Positions 1,709 through 21,539 of a stretch of 24,179 nt of DNA are shown piece by piece. Source of the DNA: a virus. The position numbers were made by a program, and so were the translations under genes. Each line of letters starts with the position of its first letter. The stretch's first letter is position 1. The stretch covers positions 1 to 24,179 of the IMG/VR virus record IMGVR_UViG_3300022221_000183; one strand, given 5' to 3'. Below the pieces are notes generated by a model. That model made no database searches. It was not told where the DNA came from and saw only the letters and a program-made list of their open reading frames with translations.

Positions 1709-2076
1709 GGTGACACCATTATGAACGCCATATTTCTGCGCTTCTGAAGTTCCATATACATCAAGCCATATTGTGTTGACCCAAGTACGGACGTTTGATT
1801 GAGATATGGGAGCGTGTAAGAAACAGACACATCACCCACGGATTCAGAAGATAAAGGGCCGCGACCACCGGGTTCAGTAAAACTTAATGACAGAAGGTGT
1901 GCAGCAATATAGGTTTGTGCGTCCTTTGCGAATTTTCCAAATTTACCAACACTGACGAAATTATCAGCCGAAGCCAAGGCCAATTGCACAGCGGTATCAG
2001 CATCTTGCAAACCAGCAAAATTATCATCACCCTGTGCAATGGCCTTGATTTCTTTCAGTGTTGTCAGGACAGCCAT
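1705..2076 (-). CDS. DUF4054 family head-tail connector-type protein
   Basis: A 123-residue protein with the DUF4054 pattern: a helical N-terminus with an acidic 'QDADTAVQLALASAD' stretch, YIAAHLLSLSF, then GGRGPLSSESVGDVSVSYTLP, and a C-terminal QTSVLGSTQYGLMYMELQKR. In related phages this gene sits right after the capsid genes and is thought to form part of the connector ring below the portal. The ATG at 2076 follows the preceding gene by 6 bases with no strong ribosome site. Family assignment is good; the structural role is inferred from synteny. Confidence 0.72.
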   Translation of the reverse strand: MAVLTTLKEIKAIAQGDDNFAGLQDADTAVQLALASADNFVSVGKFGKFAKDAQTYIAAHLLSLSFTEPGGRGPLSSESVGDVSVSYTLPYLNQTSVLGSTQYGLMYMELQKRRNMAFIMVSP

Positions 2077-2082
2077 TCAATT

Positions 2083-2529
2083 TTACTTAGCTTCTTCCAG
2101 TTTTTTCTTTTCTGCGGCTGCAGCTTCTTCAGCGTCAATCAGGGCTTCGGTTTGTGTTTCAATTGCCTTGACGACACCGGGACGGCCATCAGCATTACCG
2201 GCTTCTGTTTCCTGATTCATATAATTAGCCAGTACATCAAGATCGGCTTCGGCTTCAATAACCGATTTTGCTTCTTTGACAGACATTTTTGAAACGTCCA
2301 CAACAATATTACCAGCCGCATCAGTAGTGATAACCACATCATCCAATACTTCAATCACACCATCATCCATCATATTCTTGAATGACTTATTACCTTCTGC
2401 GACTTTTTCAACATCAGCCAACAAACAGGTATTTTTACCCGGAATCAGACGAAGGCTAACACCAGGGCCAGCACTCAGAGTGTGTTCACGCGCTTCATTG
2501 AACACGATTACGCATTTTTTATCGGACAT
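2083..2529 (-). CDS. Uncharacterised structural-module protein with charged C-terminal tail
   Basis: A 148-residue protein (MSDKKCVIVFNEAREHTL...). The start at 2529-2527 is supported by GGGAGA eight bases upstream; a longer in-frame start exists 39 bases earlier but would run into the terminator-like hairpin. The N-terminal half looks like a small globular domain (SLRLIPGKNTCLLADVEK). Residues about 100-148 are helical and highly charged, ending in an Ala/Glu/Lys run suggestive of a coiled coil. It sits between major capsid and DUF4054 genes, where some phages carry head-fibre or decoration proteins. I do not recognise the family. Confidence 0.6.
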   Translation of the reverse strand: MSDKKCVIVFNEAREHTLSAGPGVSLRLIPGKNTCLLADVEKVAEGNKSFKNMMDDGVIEVLDDVVITTDAAGNIVVDVSKMSVKEAKSVIEAEADLDVLANYMNQETEAGNADGRPGVVKAIETQTEALIDAEEAAAAEKKKLEEAK

Positions 2530-2557
2530 TTTAAGTTCTCCCAAATTAGAAACGAAA

Positions 2558-2579
2558 ACGGCCCGCAAAAGCAGACCGT
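2558..2579 (-). terminator. Terminator-like hairpin after the major capsid gene
   Basis: Read on the minus strand, ACGGTCTGC, loop TTTT, GCGGGCCGT forms a 9-bp stem (two G-T pairs), followed by TTTCGTTT. It lies just after the capsid stop codon (2591) and before the next gene's ribosome site (about 2537). The interrupted T-run suggests a partial terminator that would raise capsid transcript relative to neck genes. Confidence 0.55.
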
Positions 2580-2590
2580 CAACAGTTTAT

Positions 2591-3598
2591 TTACACATCA
2601 TACATGGTACGGCAAGCCAGCGGATAACGAACAACCACGCCACCGTTACGCGCTTCAACAGGTACCTTGAATTCAAGATTCACAATCTGCGGGGGATGAT
2701 TAATCATTTCCAGTGGAATACGCTGCTCCAAAACTTCATCAGTGTTTTCATACAGAATGTGCATATTGCTTGCACCAGTACCGGCACCTTCCAGTTCTTT
2801 TAGCCAGTCAATAGTGTCAATACCGTATGTGTTTGATTTTTGAAGAATGAATTCCAGAATAGTGGTATCAGACAGGCTTGACCGTGGTGTCATAGCAATA
2901 TGATCATAGTTGTCACTTGTCAGCAACAAGGTATTACCTGAATGAATCCTGTTGGTTGAAGTGTGAATACCGGAAACCATAGTTTTCACGTCCGCCAGGA
3001 TTTCATCGGGTGATTTGTTGATCCATAAACGAGAAGAAGCACCGCCATTCAAAGGCGCCTGAACAGTTGGAATATTTACATTGTTCAGGAAGCCTGGCAA
3101 GTTGTAATCGGTTTCACCGTTCCATGCAATATCATTTTCTTTTTCGTGGACTGCACGGCGAGCGGCATCAACCTTGAACATTTCCAGCGGTCGGCCAGCC
3201 ATAGCGGCCGCACGAAGCTCTTGTGTGCTGAAACCAAAAGCTGTACCGATGGAATAGACGTTCTGCGTAAACCGCTTTGCAAAAAGATCCACACGCGGCA
3301 AATCGTCTGACGGGTTGGCAATAATCTTAGCCATACCAACACGGGTCCACTGATAGTACGTGATAGTTTCAGCGCCGGCACCATCACGATTTGAAACCGG
3401 AATCAGTTTGCGGTACTTGAGTTCACGAAGTTTTGTTTCATATAAACGCTGCTCGACAGATTCCAGTTCGCGTTCAAAAAACAGTGATTCGCCAGCATCC
3501 ATTTTGAGCGCTTCACCGGAATCATCCAGATAAACACCCATCTTCGAGGCTACGCCCAAGGCATCCTGAACGAACCGTGTTAATGTATTCTTTTTCAT
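2591..3598 (-). CDS. Major capsid protein (DUF2184 family)
   Basis: A 335-residue protein with the DUF2184 major capsid pattern: an N-terminal arm (TRFVQDALGVASKMGVYLDD), an E-loop-like region with YETKLRELKYRKLIPVSN and GAETITYYQWTRVGMAKII, a spine segment with AFGFSTQELRAAAMAGRPLE and ARRAVHEKENDIAWNG, then a NLPGFLNN block and a C-terminal domain ending VVRYPLACRTMYDV. It is the HK97-fold shell protein. The ATG has a strong AGAGGAAAA ribosome site. The cement gene lies upstream in the operon and a terminator-like hairpin lies downstream. Confidence 0.85.
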   Translation of the reverse strand: MKKNTLTRFVQDALGVASKMGVYLDDSGEALKMDAGESLFFERELESVEQRLYETKLRELKYRKLIPVSNRDGAGAETITYYQWTRVGMAKIIANPSDDLPRVDLFAKRFTQNVYSIGTAFGFSTQELRAAAMAGRPLEMFKVDAARRAVHEKENDIAWNGETDYNLPGFLNNVNIPTVQAPLNGGASSRLWINKSPDEILADVKTMVSGIHTSTNRIHSGNTLLLTSDNYDHIAMTPRSSLSDTTILEFILQKSNTYGIDTIDWLKELEGAGTGASNMHILYENTDEVLEQRIPLEMINHPPQIVNLEFKVPVEARNGGVVVRYPLACRTMYDV

Positions 3599-9612: not shown

Positions 9613-10113
9613 TCAACTGTTCACATATAACTTTGGTTTCAAATCATCCTTCAGGTAGAGAGGGTGCCAGGGTTCATTATGTGATGTCACCTTCAGGCAA
9701 TAGGCCTTTATTCCATTTTTTCTGAGCATGATCCGTACTTGGTCTGATCGCTTCTGGTGGTCGCCATGGTTACCCCATCCACAAACCACAACACCGGCTT
9801 TCTTGGCAACTTCAATAATCACTTCGTCATTGCCTGGCCCTACTGGATCGGCTTGTGTTTTCATAACATCAGGATCCGTGGTACGAAAAGCAAATATATT
9901 ACAGACATACAGACCACCGTAACCCCAAGCCGTTGCGTACCGCTGACACTTCTCTACTGTTCGATCATCACTAAAAGCATCGGCTGTGGAAGGGTTCAGC
10001 ATTAGAAACATGCAATAGGGTTTTGTACTGTCCCAAATTCGCCATAATTTATACCGGTAATTCCTGCATCCGGAAAAATGGGCACCTTTTTCAATAAATA
10101 GATCGTTTTTCAT
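9613..10113 (-). CDS. DUF1643 family protein
   Basis: A 166-residue protein with the DUF1643 hallmarks: RYKLWRIWDSTKPYCMFLML, the invariant LNPSTADA, DRTVEKCQRYATAWGYGGLY, NIFAFRTTDP, and VVCGWGNHGDHQKR. The family is common in phages and bacteria; its biochemical role is not established to my knowledge. Its ATG overlaps the upstream methylase-like stop (TGATG), and it is followed directly by the small terminase, so it is co-transcribed with the accessory block rather than the capsid genes. Confidence 0.85.
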   Translation of the reverse strand: MKNDLFIEKGAHFSGCRNYRYKLWRIWDSTKPYCMFLMLNPSTADAFSDDRTVEKCQRYATAWGYGGLYVCNIFAFRTTDPDVMKTQADPVGPGNDEVIIEVAKKAGVVVCGWGNHGDHQKRSDQVRIMLRKNGIKAYCLKVTSHNEPWHPLYLKDDLKPKLYVNS

Positions 10114-10859
10114 CAGAAATTAAACGCCGCTTGGCCCGTTGGTTCAGTTACTACGGTTATCGGCTGGCCGACAGCCTCGATAACAGATTCTTTGATTTTA
10201 TTACCAGCCTGTAACCGATAATCCCAAAACCCCATGATATGCGCCGGGGTCTTGAAGGCTTCGCGCATTTCCATACTGAGTGTATTACCAACATAGACCA
10301 CAGCCGGAACGTGTAACAAAGATAATTGAATATACGCCATATAGGCCGCTGTACTGCTTACGTCCACGGCTGATACGTGTATGACTTGCTGATAATTGAC
10401 ACCTTTGTCTATCAGCGCCCGAGCCAGGGCGATAATCATACCGCCTGATCCACACGCCGGTTCACTGACGGTCACGAATTCACGGGTAATCAAACTTTCT
10501 TCCATATCCTGCGTGTTTGTTTGCGCCATCATCAAAGACAAGTGGAACGGGGTGAAAAATTGGCCTTGCCAGTGGCTTGACAGCTCCAGGTGCATAAACA
10601 GTTCCCCGAGAAAGTCACAATCCATGGACTCAAGGCCTTCCACGGTCAGGCTGTACATTTTCGGGAATTCAAGCCGTTCCTTTTCGTTGTACCTGCTAAT
10701 TATGGATAGGTATCGATCTTCCCGGTCCTGTTGAAAAGCCATGGTATTCGACATAGCCAGGGCCGACATTTCGCAAAAGTCTGAAAACACCTGCCACAAG
10801 TGGTACCGGCTTGATAGGTGCTTGATGGTTTTAATGAATTGGGTTTGGTGGTGGTTCAT
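10113..10859 (-). CDS. N6-adenine methylase-like protein lacking a visible NPPY motif
   Basis: A 248-residue protein resembling the catalytic half of HsdM-type N6-adenine methylases. It has a helical N-terminus, a QFFTP segment (residues 100-104) and a clear AdoMet-binding motif I EPACGSGG (133-140), followed by AVDVSSTAAYMAYIQLSLL, the equivalent of the motif II region. The strand VVYVGNTLSMEM corresponds to the segment before catalytic motif IV, but no NPPY/NPPF follows; instead the sequence runs REAFKTPAHIMGFWDYRL. It may be a non-catalytic AdoMet binder or use another active site. It is linked by ATGA overlaps on both sides. Confidence 0.7.
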   Translation of the reverse strand: MNHHQTQFIKTIKHLSSRYHLWQVFSDFCEMSALAMSNTMAFQQDREDRYLSIISRYNEKERLEFPKMYSLTVEGLESMDCDFLGELFMHLELSSHWQGQFFTPFHLSLMMAQTNTQDMEESLITREFVTVSEPACGSGGMIIALARALIDKGVNYQQVIHVSAVDVSSTAAYMAYIQLSLLHVPAVVYVGNTLSMEMREAFKTPAHIMGFWDYRLQAGNKIKESVIEAVGQPITVVTEPTGQAAFNF

Positions 10860-12632: not shown

Positions 12633-13658
12633 TTATGACGTTAAGATTTGCCATGCTGTTTTAACCACTGCTGGTACTTGTCCGTTGCCAATGGCTTTAA
12701 GTCGGTCCACCCGATTGGCCACCCCATGAGCCACTCGACCCATTCCGGGTTCAGTTGCCCACCAACTCCCTGCCTGGTTAATTCCTCCGGGAGGTCTACA
12801 CCTCTGCTGCTTTCCGCTGCTCTTTCCGCTGCTCTTTCCGCTGTCACAGATCCTTTGTGGTCGTTTGCTTTCGGTGTCGGCCATAGTTTTACCGCCGTCC
12901 TTAAATTCATTCCTCCCTGTTTTGCTTTTGATTGTCCCGCCCCCGTTCCTTCCGATACTGTTGGTGTTGGCCACATTTGCCGCGCCACGACTGTTTCCAG
13001 ATTTAAGAACTTTGCATTGGCTGTTTTTTCTGTGATGGTTGCGGCCATTGCCTGATTGGCTCTCGGCGTTGGTAATAACACTTGAGCTGACAACTTCGGT
13101 TCGCCCCTGCTGTTGTATTTCCCTTTCTCCCGATTTACTGCATCGTCCGCCACTGGTGTCTGCCACAATAAAGAGTCGATCACGTTTATGCGGCGCTCCC
13201 ATTTCGGCTGCCGATAAAATGCGCCATCGTGGTATATACCCGCTTTCGGCCAAGTCTCTAAATATGGTTCTTCCGTATTCGTGAGCAAGCAGACCTGGCA
13301 CGTTTTCAAGTAAGGCAAATCGGGGTCGTATAATGCGAATGGCTGCGATAGTTTCGGGCCACATATTTCTGTCATCGGCTGCGCCTTCCTGTTTTCCGGC
13401 GACTGAAAACGGCTGACAAGGGAATCCTGCTGATAGAATATCAACCATTCCCTGATAGCTTTTGGCGTACCCTTCACTGATGAATGCTCGGATATCGCCG
13501 AAGATAGGGGCTTCATCGAGGATTCCGTCGATAATTCGTTGTCGGATAACTCGCTGGCAGTAATCGTTGTATTCAACATATCCAATGTATTTAAACCCTA
13601 ATAGTTTTGTTCCGAGTAACCCGCCACCAGCACCAGAAAATAAGCTGAGTTCATTCAT
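12633..13658 (-). CDS. DNA (cytosine-5) methyltransferase
   Basis: A 341-residue C5-methyltransferase with motif I SLFSGAGGG (5-13), motif II E29, motif IV GFPCQPFSVAGKQEG with catalytic Cys81, motif VI ENVPG (118-122), motif VIII KRDRLFIVA (158-166) and the closing motifs RLKAIGNGQVP (319-329). Residues about 167-300, where the target-recognition domain should be, are low-complexity and rich in Ser, Gly, Asn, Arg and Lys. This fits constraint from a second gene read in another frame over the same DNA. It probably protects phage DNA from host restriction. ATG 13658 overlaps the RuvC-like stop (ATGA). Confidence 0.88.
   Translation of the reverse strand: MNELSLFSGAGGGLLGTKLLGFKYIGYVEYNDYCQRVIRQRIIDGILDEAPIFGDIRAFISEGYAKSYQGMVDILSAGFPCQPFSVAGKQEGAADDRNMWPETIAAIRIIRPRFALLENVPGLLAHEYGRTIFRDLAESGYIPRWRILSAAEMGAPHKRDRLFIVADTSGGRCSKSGEREIQQQGRTEVVSSSVITNAESQSGNGRNHHRKNSQCKVLKSGNSRGAANVANTNSIGRNGGGTIKSKTGRNEFKDGGKTMADTESKRPQRICDSGKSSGKSSGKQQRCRPPGGINQAGSWWATEPGMGRVAHGVANRVDRLKAIGNGQVPAVVKTAWQILTS
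12641..13579 (-). CDS. Overprinted gene inside the cytosine methyltransferase ('WPTP...LNPEWVEWLMGWP' type protein)
   Basis: A 313-residue frame runs without a stop, shifted by one base, inside the methyltransferase gene. It contains four W/L-(P/Q)-T-P modules (LWQTPVADDAV, LLPTPRANQAMA, MWPTPTVSEGTGAG, LWPTPKANDHKG) and ends with GGQLNPEWVEWLMGWPIGWT and DLKPLATDKYQQWL. I recall this C-terminal signature from stand-alone phage proteins of unknown function. The four modules lie opposite ADT/NA/ANT/ADT in the methyltransferase frame. The start is uncertain: ATG 13579 follows GGAT closely, and an upstream TTG also exists. No established function. An open frame of this length with family-like motifs argues for coding, but it may partly mirror conserved methyltransferase codons. 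Confidence 0.6.
   Translation of the reverse strand: MLNTTITASELSDNELSTESSMKPLSSAISEHSSVKGTPKAIREWLIFYQQDSLVSRFQSPENRKAQPMTEICGPKLSQPFALYDPDLPYLKTCQVCLLTNTEEPYLETWPKAGIYHDGAFYRQPKWERRINVIDSLLWQTPVADDAVNREKGKYNSRGEPKLSAQVLLPTPRANQAMAATITEKTANAKFLNLETVVARQMWPTPTVSEGTGAGQSKAKQGGMNLRTAVKLWPTPKANDHKGSVTAERAAERAAESSRGVDLPEELTRQGVGGQLNPEWVEWLMGWPIGWTDLKPLATDKYQQWLKQHGKS
12810..12845. repeat. Three tandem 12-bp units in the dual-coding region
   Basis: The unit CTTTCCGCTGCT occurs at 12810-12821, 12822-12833 and, with two end changes, 12834-12845. Twelve is a multiple of three, so copy change keeps both overlapping frames: (S)GKS repeats in the methyltransferase and AERA repeats in the second frame. 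Confidence 0.9.
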
Positions 13659-14358: not shown

Positions 14359-14636
14359 AAATAATCCACCGTTTTGGCTGCGTCATAAAATTCTTTTTTC
14401 AGTTTGTACCTGCATTCGTCTTTGTAAATCGCTTTCCGCTTGCGCCGAATTTTTCTTACTCGCTTGTTTTCAATGTAGGCCGCACCCTGCTGGACCAGCA
14501 AATTAATATACCGCTGCACTTCCATGAGCGAGAACGGTAAACTAATTCCCCTTTCATGCACTTCTTTTGCGGTCGTAGCACCACCAATGTTTACCATCAC
14601 ATTGATAATCCTAAGTAAGTTATCGTTCAGACTCAC
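14355..14636 (-). CDS. Small winged-helix-like protein
   Basis: A 93-residue basic protein. The N-terminal 60 residues have the look of a winged helix: a first helix (NLLRIINVMVNIGG), AKEVHERGI, FSLMEVQRYINLLVQQGAAY as helices 2-3, and a basic RVRKIRRKRKAIYK hairpin. DNA binding is plausible but unproven. Translation uses GTG 14636-14634, overlapping the adenine methyltransferase stop (GTGA). Confidence 0.6.
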   Translation of the reverse strand: MSLNDNLLRIINVMVNIGGATTAKEVHERGISLPFSLMEVQRYINLLVQQGAAYIENKRVRKIRRKRKAIYKDECRYKLKKEFYDAAKTVDYL

Positions 14637-15229
14637 TCTTGAGCCTTTATTGGATAATCGTTGCCCCAGCCGTCCCAGCCCTCAACCTTTTGTCTGGCGA
14701 ATAATTCAATCCTCGGTATATCACCCATCAGTTTGACGATTCGATCACGGGTTTCAGGTGGTTTGACTGAGTGGTTCAAAATTCGTGACCGCATAACTTG
14801 TGGAATGCTAGCGTCTTGCCGTTTTGATTTGCCTCTGGTTGCCAGCAAACAATCCTCTGTCACATAAAACTGTTCACCCTTTATGGCCAACAAACAATCT
14901 TCAGTGTTTGCACGGGTCCAGTTACCCATACCGTAATGAAGTTTCCCCTTTACGGTATATTTCACCCAATTGAACGCCTTGGTTTTGTATTCAAATCCCC
15001 AGGCCTCGATCACCTTCGCGGCATCCATTAAAAACGGGGGAGTCACCCATAAAAACAATACGCAATCATCAGCGGCGATATCCTGAACCGGTAAGGCACA
15101 GATATCTTCAAGGGACATGCAATTGTATTTATGGCTAGCACCACGTTTGCCGGCGTTGGCTTTATCTGAATAAGACCAGGCCGGATCGGCGTAGATTACT
15201 GAATACTTCTTGTTTGGAAATGGAATCAT
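14633..15229 (-). CDS. MT-A70 family adenine methyltransferase
   Basis: A 198-residue MT-A70-type DNA adenine methyltransferase. The catalytic motif is DPAW (residues 15-18) in KYSVIYADPAWSY, a phage variant of DPPW. Other family blocks are MSLEDICALPVQDIAADDCV, LFLWVTPPFLMDAAKVIEAW, GMGNWTRANTEDCLLA, NHSVKPPETRDRIVKLMGD, and the end RIELFARQKVEGWDGWGND. Residues 109-118 and 124-133 repeat TEDCLLAxxG, a 15-residue duplication not expected in this family. It likely modifies phage DNA. The start has AAGGAA eight bases upstream. Confidence 0.87.
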   Translation of the reverse strand: MIPFPNKKYSVIYADPAWSYSDKANAGKRGASHKYNCMSLEDICALPVQDIAADDCVLFLWVTPPFLMDAAKVIEAWGFEYKTKAFNWVKYTVKGKLHYGMGNWTRANTEDCLLAIKGEQFYVTEDCLLATRGKSKRQDASIPQVMRSRILNHSVKPPETRDRIVKLMGDIPRIELFARQKVEGWDGWGNDYPIKAQE

Positions 15230-20566: not shown

Positions 20567-20863
20567 GTGATATCAAACAATCAAACACGAAGATTAAGCG
20601 CAATGTCTAGTTCCAGTATTGTAGGTGGCGACATAAAAGCCGCTTTGAATGAAATTAATAATTTAAGAGATATTAATTCTGATCTTCTGGAAACCACCGA
20701 AATATTATTAAAGTGGATTATTGCTGAACGTGAAGCAACGTATGACCTTTCCACTAATCAAGAAGGTGAATATTCGTCAGATGAAGATAGACAGGAAGTA
20801 GCTGAATACGATGAATTCATTATGAAAGTACAAGCCGTAATCAAAAAAGCAAAAGGTGAATAA
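20567..20863 (+). CDS. Uncharacterised early protein
   Basis: A 98-residue protein; GTG 20567 is chosen because TAAGGAAA lies upstream, while a TTG 18 bases earlier overlaps that site. It has a Ser-rich start, then a helix with DIKAALNEINNLRDINSDLL and TTEILLKWIIAEREA, an acidic loop and a closing helix (FIMKVQAVIKKAKGE). It may be a helical hairpin or coiled-coil protein. No family recognised. The next gene starts just after its stop. Confidence 0.6.
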   Translation: MISNNQTRRLSAMSSSSIVGGDIKAALNEINNLRDINSDLLETTEILLKWIIAEREATYDLSTNQEGEYSSDEDRQEVAEYDEFIMKVQAVIKKAKGE

Positions 20864-20864
20864 A

Positions 20865-21539
20865 ATGATAATTAAATTTAGAGCAATTTTAGATGTTAAT
20901 ACAGCCATCGAGGCAGTGAAACAAAACGGCTATACCTTGCGGTATGTCAAAGACCAATCAGAGGCCGTGTGCATCGAGGCAGTGAAACGAAACGGCGATG
21001 CCTTGCAGTATGTCAAAGACCAATCCGAGGCCGTGTGCATCGAGGCAGTGAAACAAAACGGCTATGCCTTGCGGTATGTCAAAGACCAATCCGAGGCCGT
21101 GTGCATCGAGGCAGTGAAAGAAGACGGCTATGCCTTGCAGTATGTCAAAGACCAATCCGAGGCCGTGTGCATCGAGGCAGTGAAACAAAACGGCTATGCC
21201 TTGCAGTATGTCAAAGACCAATCCGAGGCCGTGTGCATCGAGGCAGTGAAACAAGACGGCTATGCCTTGCAGTATGTCAAAGACCAATCCGAGGCCGTGT
21301 GCATCGAGGCAGTGAAACAAGACGGCTATGCCTTGCAGTATGTCAAAGACCAATCCGAGGCCGTGTGCATCGAGGCAGTGAAACAAAACGGCTATACCTT
21401 GCGGTATGTCAAAGACCAATCAGAGGCCGTGTGCATCGAGGCAGTGAAACAAAACGGCTATGCCTTGCAGTATGTCTTGATTAAAGATTTATTTATCAAA
21501 ATCGCAGGCATGATTAATATCGAAATTGATATTTCATAA
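20865..21539 (+). CDS. DUF4116-type tandem-repeat protein
   Basis: A 224-residue protein made almost wholly of nine 22-residue units of the form IEAVKQNGYALQYVKDQSEA with small changes at a few sites (Q/R/E, N/D, Y/D, A/T, Q/R). The unit resembles DUF4116 repeats, which are common in some protists, giant viruses and bacteria and are thought to form helical-hairpin solenoids. ATG 20865 has AGGTGA upstream. The last 24 residues (DLFIKIAGMINIEIDIS) are unique. Such a repeat protein in a phage early operon, just before csrA, has no known function. Confidence 0.75.
   Translation: MIIKFRAILDVNTAIEAVKQNGYTLRYVKDQSEAVCIEAVKRNGDALQYVKDQSEAVCIEAVKQNGYALRYVKDQSEAVCIEAVKEDGYALQYVKDQSEAVCIEAVKQNGYALQYVKDQSEAVCIEAVKQDGYALQYVKDQSEAVCIEAVKQDGYALQYVKDQSEAVCIEAVKQNGYTLRYVKDQSEAVCIEAVKQNGYALQYVLIKDLFIKIAGMINIEIDIS
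20907..21476 (+). repeat. Nine 66-bp coding tandem repeats
   Basis: Units begin about every 66 bases from 20907 with ATCGAGGCAGTGAAAC and are nearly identical; the ninth is shortened. Unit length is a multiple of three, so copy-number change keeps the frame. High identity, including silent sites, points to recent expansion or ongoing homogenisation. Two other frames are also open across the array only because the unit lacks stops in them. Confidence 0.95.

Follow-up and report, generated by a model that had tools for sequence, protein, structure and literature searches.

Two described C5-cytosine DNA methyltransferases distribute their conserved motifs over two polypeptides. M.EcoHK31I has motifs I-VIII and X together with a predicted target-recognition domain (TRD) in its large subunit and motif IX in the small one, and M.AquI consists of two polypeptides split after motif VIII, with part of the TRD and motif IX in the second (PMC3404938). 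Single-chain enzymes hold TRD, IX and X in one chain and have a closed +1 frame, whereas the phage locus analyzed here has a putative motif IX in an open +1 frame. Its layout is of a known type, because the division of motifs I-VIII and X from IX already exists in M.EcoHK31I (YGGCCR), which is its closest precedent as judged by motif pattern and position. The phage locus also encodes its small polypeptide (beta) in another frame inside the gene of the large one (alpha), as reportedly does M.EcoHK31I. The two systems differ in that the predicted TRD of M.EcoHK31I was published as part of the large subunit, whereas we infer that of the phage locus to lie in beta (a point against our reading), and in that phage beta has 312 amino acids against a reported 176. 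M.AquI (CYCGRG) has motif X in the small subunit, whereas the phage locus has X in alpha and two genes that overlap almost completely. Searches of E. coli genomes and plasmids did not identify the M.EcoHK31I genes; the loci inspected there were prophages. The newer points are the breadth of the class among phages and the candidate role of beta as recognition subunit. We found no published account of a phage-wide dual-coding pattern in the literature searched, although one may exist elsewhere.

The window, that is, the whole stretch of DNA analyzed, comprises 24,179 nucleotides of a phage (IMG/VR record IMGVR_UViG_3300022221_000183). Alpha occupies 12633-13658 on the minus strand (341 amino acids; all alpha and beta coordinates below refer to this strand) and, as the catalytic subunit with motifs I-VIII and X, matches PF00145 (E=2.3e-39), TIGR00675 (E=1.1e-33) and PHROG 363 (E=1.2e-64). 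The catalytic motifs of PF00145 are present at residues 7 (I), 78 (IV, PCQ), 118 (VI, ENV), 157 (VIII) and 316 (X), with FSGAGG of motif I at 13623-13640, GFPCQ of motif IV at 13413-13427, ENV of motif VI at 13293-13307 and HKRDRLF of motif VIII at 13170-13190. In the AlphaFold model the catalytic domain (residues 1-167; 13158-13658) has a pLDDT mostly above 90 and matches the fold of M.HhaI and M.HaeIII, single-chain enzymes that, like Dcm, have a catalytic domain homologous to alpha. The C-terminus (12636-12716) carries motif X (RVDRLKAIGNGQVP at 12672-12713), and its last helix has a pLDDT of 93-95. Between these parts lies a linker, residues 170-314 (12717-13151), which shares its DNA with the recognition modules of beta and is predicted to be disordered (pLDDT below 50 over most of it). 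Unlike a single-chain enzyme, alpha does not house both motif IX and a folded TRD: the segment in question is predicted disordered, and a pattern check found no motif IX in frame A, the alpha frame, in members of the dual-coded family.

Further DNA methyltransferase genes lie nearby on the minus strand, an N6_Mtase at 10113-10859 (PF02384, E=8.6e-07) and an MT-A70 gene at 14633-15229 (PF05063, E=4.5e-29); no restriction endonuclease gene was recognized among the window ORFs scanned. The ORF list also holds an antisense ORF (12648-13055) across the alpha/beta DNA, which was treated as chance. Elsewhere, a DUF4116 tandem-repeat protein is encoded at 20856-21539 on the plus strand, and its repetition keeps a +1/+2 ORF (20969-21484) open as well, along with one on the opposite strand (antisense, 20958-21419).

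The initial annotation had proposed a stop-free frame overprinted inside the methyltransferase, and this is what we find: beta lies wholly within alpha, on the same strand and shifted by +1, without an internal stop. It is open from TTG 13585 or ATG 13579 down to the stop at 12641, giving 312 amino acids from the ATG (12641-13579). We consider it a protein with a putative target-recognition region and motif IX on the basis of a PHROG 1008 match, the dual-coding tests described below and the recurrence of its N-terminus (MLNT/MSNST..) in relatives. Positions 12-282 of the 329 in the PHROG 1008 profile aligned with beta residues 21-297 (E=3.6e-39), so that most of the protein is covered, and tblastn matched beta in 78 phage records. 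The four TP modules and the LNPEWVEWLMGWPIGWT terminus that had been noticed in the sequence at the outset are located as described: WQTP (13154-13165), LPTP (13064-13075) and two copies of WPTP (12962-12973 and 12872-12883) face VADT, ITNA, VANT and MADT in alpha, in agreement with the ADT, NA, ANT and ADT noted before. Modules 1 and 3 fall in conserved column blocks (z=26.9 and z=18-29, respectively), and the motif IX-like terminus (LNPEWVEWLMGWPIGWT, 12704-12754) is conserved more strongly than the rest of beta (alpha-preserving shuffles, z=84 and 63), with N279-W289 mostly invariant across 77 sequences.

Pfam, NCBIfam, PADLOC and PDB contained no relative of beta. Because the predicted structure of beta alone has a pLDDT of 60 and no fold match at a Z of 2 or more, we make no claim about its fold. 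Hhalign gave no significant alignment between canonical C5-methyltransferases and either beta or natural variants carrying IX and X, the terminus staying unaligned with canonical motif IX, and Pfam and NCBIfam did not match these variants. As the profile alignment failed and the lone model is poor, motif IX was assigned by pattern, position and the natural variants.

A shortened alpha with beta continuing past its end is found in L032, L035, L111, L164, L216 and the actinophages L006 and L007. Alpha of the first five stops after motif VIII and beta continues through IX into X, which yields the canonical order VIII, TRD, IX, X and a layout in common with M.AquI, with IX and X in the second polypeptide. 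No stand-alone beta was found in the phages, plasmids, viral contigs and genomes searched, the relatives examined overlapping or adjoining an alpha. Similar C-terminal signatures had initially been ascribed to stand-alone phage proteins; this was not borne out, since almost all relatives examined have their beta in overlap with an alpha.

Several features make beta resemble the small, DNA-recognizing half of a methyltransferase: the alpha linker is predicted to be disordered, frame A has no motif IX, beta ends in an IX-like terminus and variants joining IX to X exist. Computation shows motifs IX and X divided between the two frames, with IX identified by pattern and context and hence putative. 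We consider it very probable that the same nucleotides encode both subunits of a single C5-cytosine DNA methyltransferase of the phage. Alpha would provide AdoMet binding, catalytic motifs I-VIII and the C-terminal motif X helix, and beta (frame A+1) the target-recognition modules and motif IX, equivalent to the small DNA-contacting domain of single-chain enzymes. Between VIII and X, alpha would have a flexible linker under little constraint beyond an uninterrupted reading frame. Translated beta would assemble with alpha into an active, sequence-specific methyltransferase that may mark phage DNA against host restriction.

It is very unlikely that alpha is a complete enzyme and beta a protein with a separate role, for example in regulating or inhibiting the methyltransferase or in anti-restriction. 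Such a role would suit a protein that has no recognized domain and whose N-terminal part is weakly constrained beyond alpha, but neither motif IX nor a folded recognition domain is seen in alpha, beta supplies exactly that piece, and beta is continuous with motif X in the split variants. The early proposal of two proteins encoded by a single 1-kb stretch is supported by the dual-coding tests, as is the second protein as a companion of the methyltransferase, but a recognition and motif IX subunit fits better than the modulator then envisaged.

The beta ATG lies 4 nt after the alpha start in 133 of 199 relatives, often behind one shared Shine-Dalgarno, and the frame is open through beta in 132 of the 138 relatives that have a start codon at this upstream position. 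Of the 133 with starts 4 nt apart, 125 have AAT as codon 2, and codon choice fits an M-S-W start of beta. Codon 3 of these genes is GAG in 121 and GAA in 7, compared with 739:1470 elsewhere (p ~1e-48 in a test that ignores relatedness), a preference opposite to the simple A/T preference near starts. The window itself has its beta start further in, at ATG 13579, as do L094, L029 and L074, and this ATG has a weak local Shine-Dalgarno context, which counts against the two-subunit reading. Reading of the leader frame and comparison with relatives point to a vestige of the upstream start at 13598-13654, an ATG four bases after the alpha ATG that is followed by a TAG after 18 codons. Programmed frameshifting that fuses both frames into one polypeptide would be in keeping with the shared strand, the constant +1 register and the placement of IX and X in different frames. 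However, two shifts in opposite senses would be needed to unite I-VIII, IX and X in a single chain, and the separate beta ATG of the 133 relatives, with its fitting codons, also argues against fusion, which we likewise regard as very unlikely.

We assessed dual coding with 300 synonymous-codon shuffles of alpha, reading stops and the score of a beta-family HMM in the beta frame. Shuffling the window introduced 7.8 stops on average into the beta interval (minimum 3; none of the 300 stop-free) and lowered the HMM score from 317 bits to 120 +/- 16. All of the 18 diverse loci treated in this way, the window and 17 others, acquired 3-9 stops and lost much of their beta score. Conversely, shuffles of the linker that preserved beta were expected to produce 714 alpha stops, compared with 0 in the real sequences (20,415 codons from 202 loci chosen for full-length alpha). 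Across 76 non-redundant sequences, beta conservation exceeded the alpha-preserving null at frame A positions 121-150 (z 12-35), 161-170 (27) and 221-240 (18-29), and most strongly at 301-320 (z 84 and 63), where the motif IX block scored 0.69 against a null of 0.23 (z=84). The excess was small at positions 1-110 and absent at 51-60. Both frames are under selection, and beta is constrained in the recognition region. The dual-coding check suggested along with the original observation favors dual coding: the second frame is open in homologues and its synonymous constraint exceeds what alpha explains. It is very unlikely that alpha alone is made and that its protein sequence and codon usage keep the second frame open and conserved in appearance. 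Overlapping frames always share some constraint, and 120 of the 317 bits survived the alpha-preserving shuffles, but the stops and score loss in these shuffles, the excess conservation of beta of up to z=84, the higher conservation of beta than alpha in the linker and the stop-filled +1 frames of single-chain paralogues all contradict it. A chance ORF or codon-usage artefact as the full explanation is ruled out by both shuffle tests, the excess beta conservation and the stops in the paralogues' +1 frames.

The frame geometry, in which position 3 of an A codon is position 2 of a beta codon and A position 1 is the beta wobble, allows the linker to be examined in the same way. In the linkers of close pairs, changes are concentrated at A position 1 and identity is lower in frame A than in the beta frame. 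For L046 and L054, linker identity is 0.71 for alpha and 0.98 for beta, with changes of 0.26 at A position 1 against 0.01 at position 3; this codon-position signal fades in more distant pairs, where the linker alignment is unreliable. The pattern supports the view that the alpha linker evolves as a passenger of beta. Together with the predicted disorder, it agrees with the initial annotation, which had found alpha residues of about 167-300 unlike a target-recognition domain. The pairs L076/L078, L030/L084 and L017/L027 have alpha cores with an identity of 0.89-0.99 but beta linker identities of 0.12-0.61. Near-identical alpha cores with differing beta recognition regions are what would be expected of swapped specificity domains, and these pairs are in support of the two-subunit reading.

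All of the 80 viral loci fetched with an alpha profile have beta in the same register, a figure that calls for caution, since most of the loci behind this profile had been found through beta and several of the 80 are contigs of the first search. In a PF00145 search of 11 genomes, single-chain C5-methyltransferases carried motif IX in frame A, and their +1 frame held 6-34 stops; family members had the opposite pattern, with IX in an open +1 frame and none in frame A, and L270 and L274 fitted neither clearly. In a catalytic-domain tree, one branch with support of 100/99 sets the single-chain enzymes apart from all sampled dual-coded members, among them those of the actinophage and enterobacterial subfamilies. 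A second subfamily (L175, at 2042-3028; L286, at 1155-1979; L288, L289 and L291-L297), in phages of enterobacterial, Burkholderia, Vibrio and Rhodobacter hosts, has the same overlapping second frame with LNPAHSRWLMG-type termini. As side observations, L155 (2754-4659) contains two tandem methyltransferase ORFs, each with a beta-like +1-frame match; L174 (5000-5761), an E. coli prophage copy annotated as a pseudogene, has its two frames interrupted by stops at roughly matching positions; and L227 has a motif IX segment in frame A and an alpha without X, as though the gene end had been shifted by a change of frame.

Beta is already present in some records: gene 51 of Paenibacillus phage Rani is annotated 'g50 Internal gene', Escherichia phage K1ind1 has ORF28 inside the C-specific methylase ORF29, and PHROG 1008 is the same second-frame family. 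Across PHROG 1008 and the 'internal' or 'Mte8-like' genes (Paenibacillus and Escherichia K1 phages), the only names given are 'DNA methyltransferase', 'hypothetical protein' or 'Mte8-like', a recognition-subunit role was stated in none of the records examined, and the E. coli records examined annotate alpha alone. The extent of the two-frame layout seems under-appreciated, as it occurs at hundreds of loci in phages and prophages and annotations mostly omit beta. We think it fairly likely that an entire clade of C5-methyltransferases in phages and prophages is dual-coded, with catalytic and recognition subunits in the same nucleotides, the annotated recognition region a passenger, specificity evolving in the hidden frame and, in most of the largest group, starts 4 nt apart behind one ribosome-binding site.

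If the two-subunit reading holds, annotations give only one of two subunits for hundreds of 'DNA cytosine methyltransferases' in phages and prophages, the unannotated subunit would decide which DNA sequence is methylated, and predicting specificity from the annotated protein would mean relying on passenger sequence. Clade-wide dual coding would be among the most widespread and longest cases of overprinted prokaryotic gene pairs, possibly with a single origin and repeated later escapes to split genes. The family would offer a large natural data set of two full-length proteins evolving in one stretch of DNA, for which single-chain relatives and split escapees could serve as controls, and would make the location of specificity in such enzymes directly testable.
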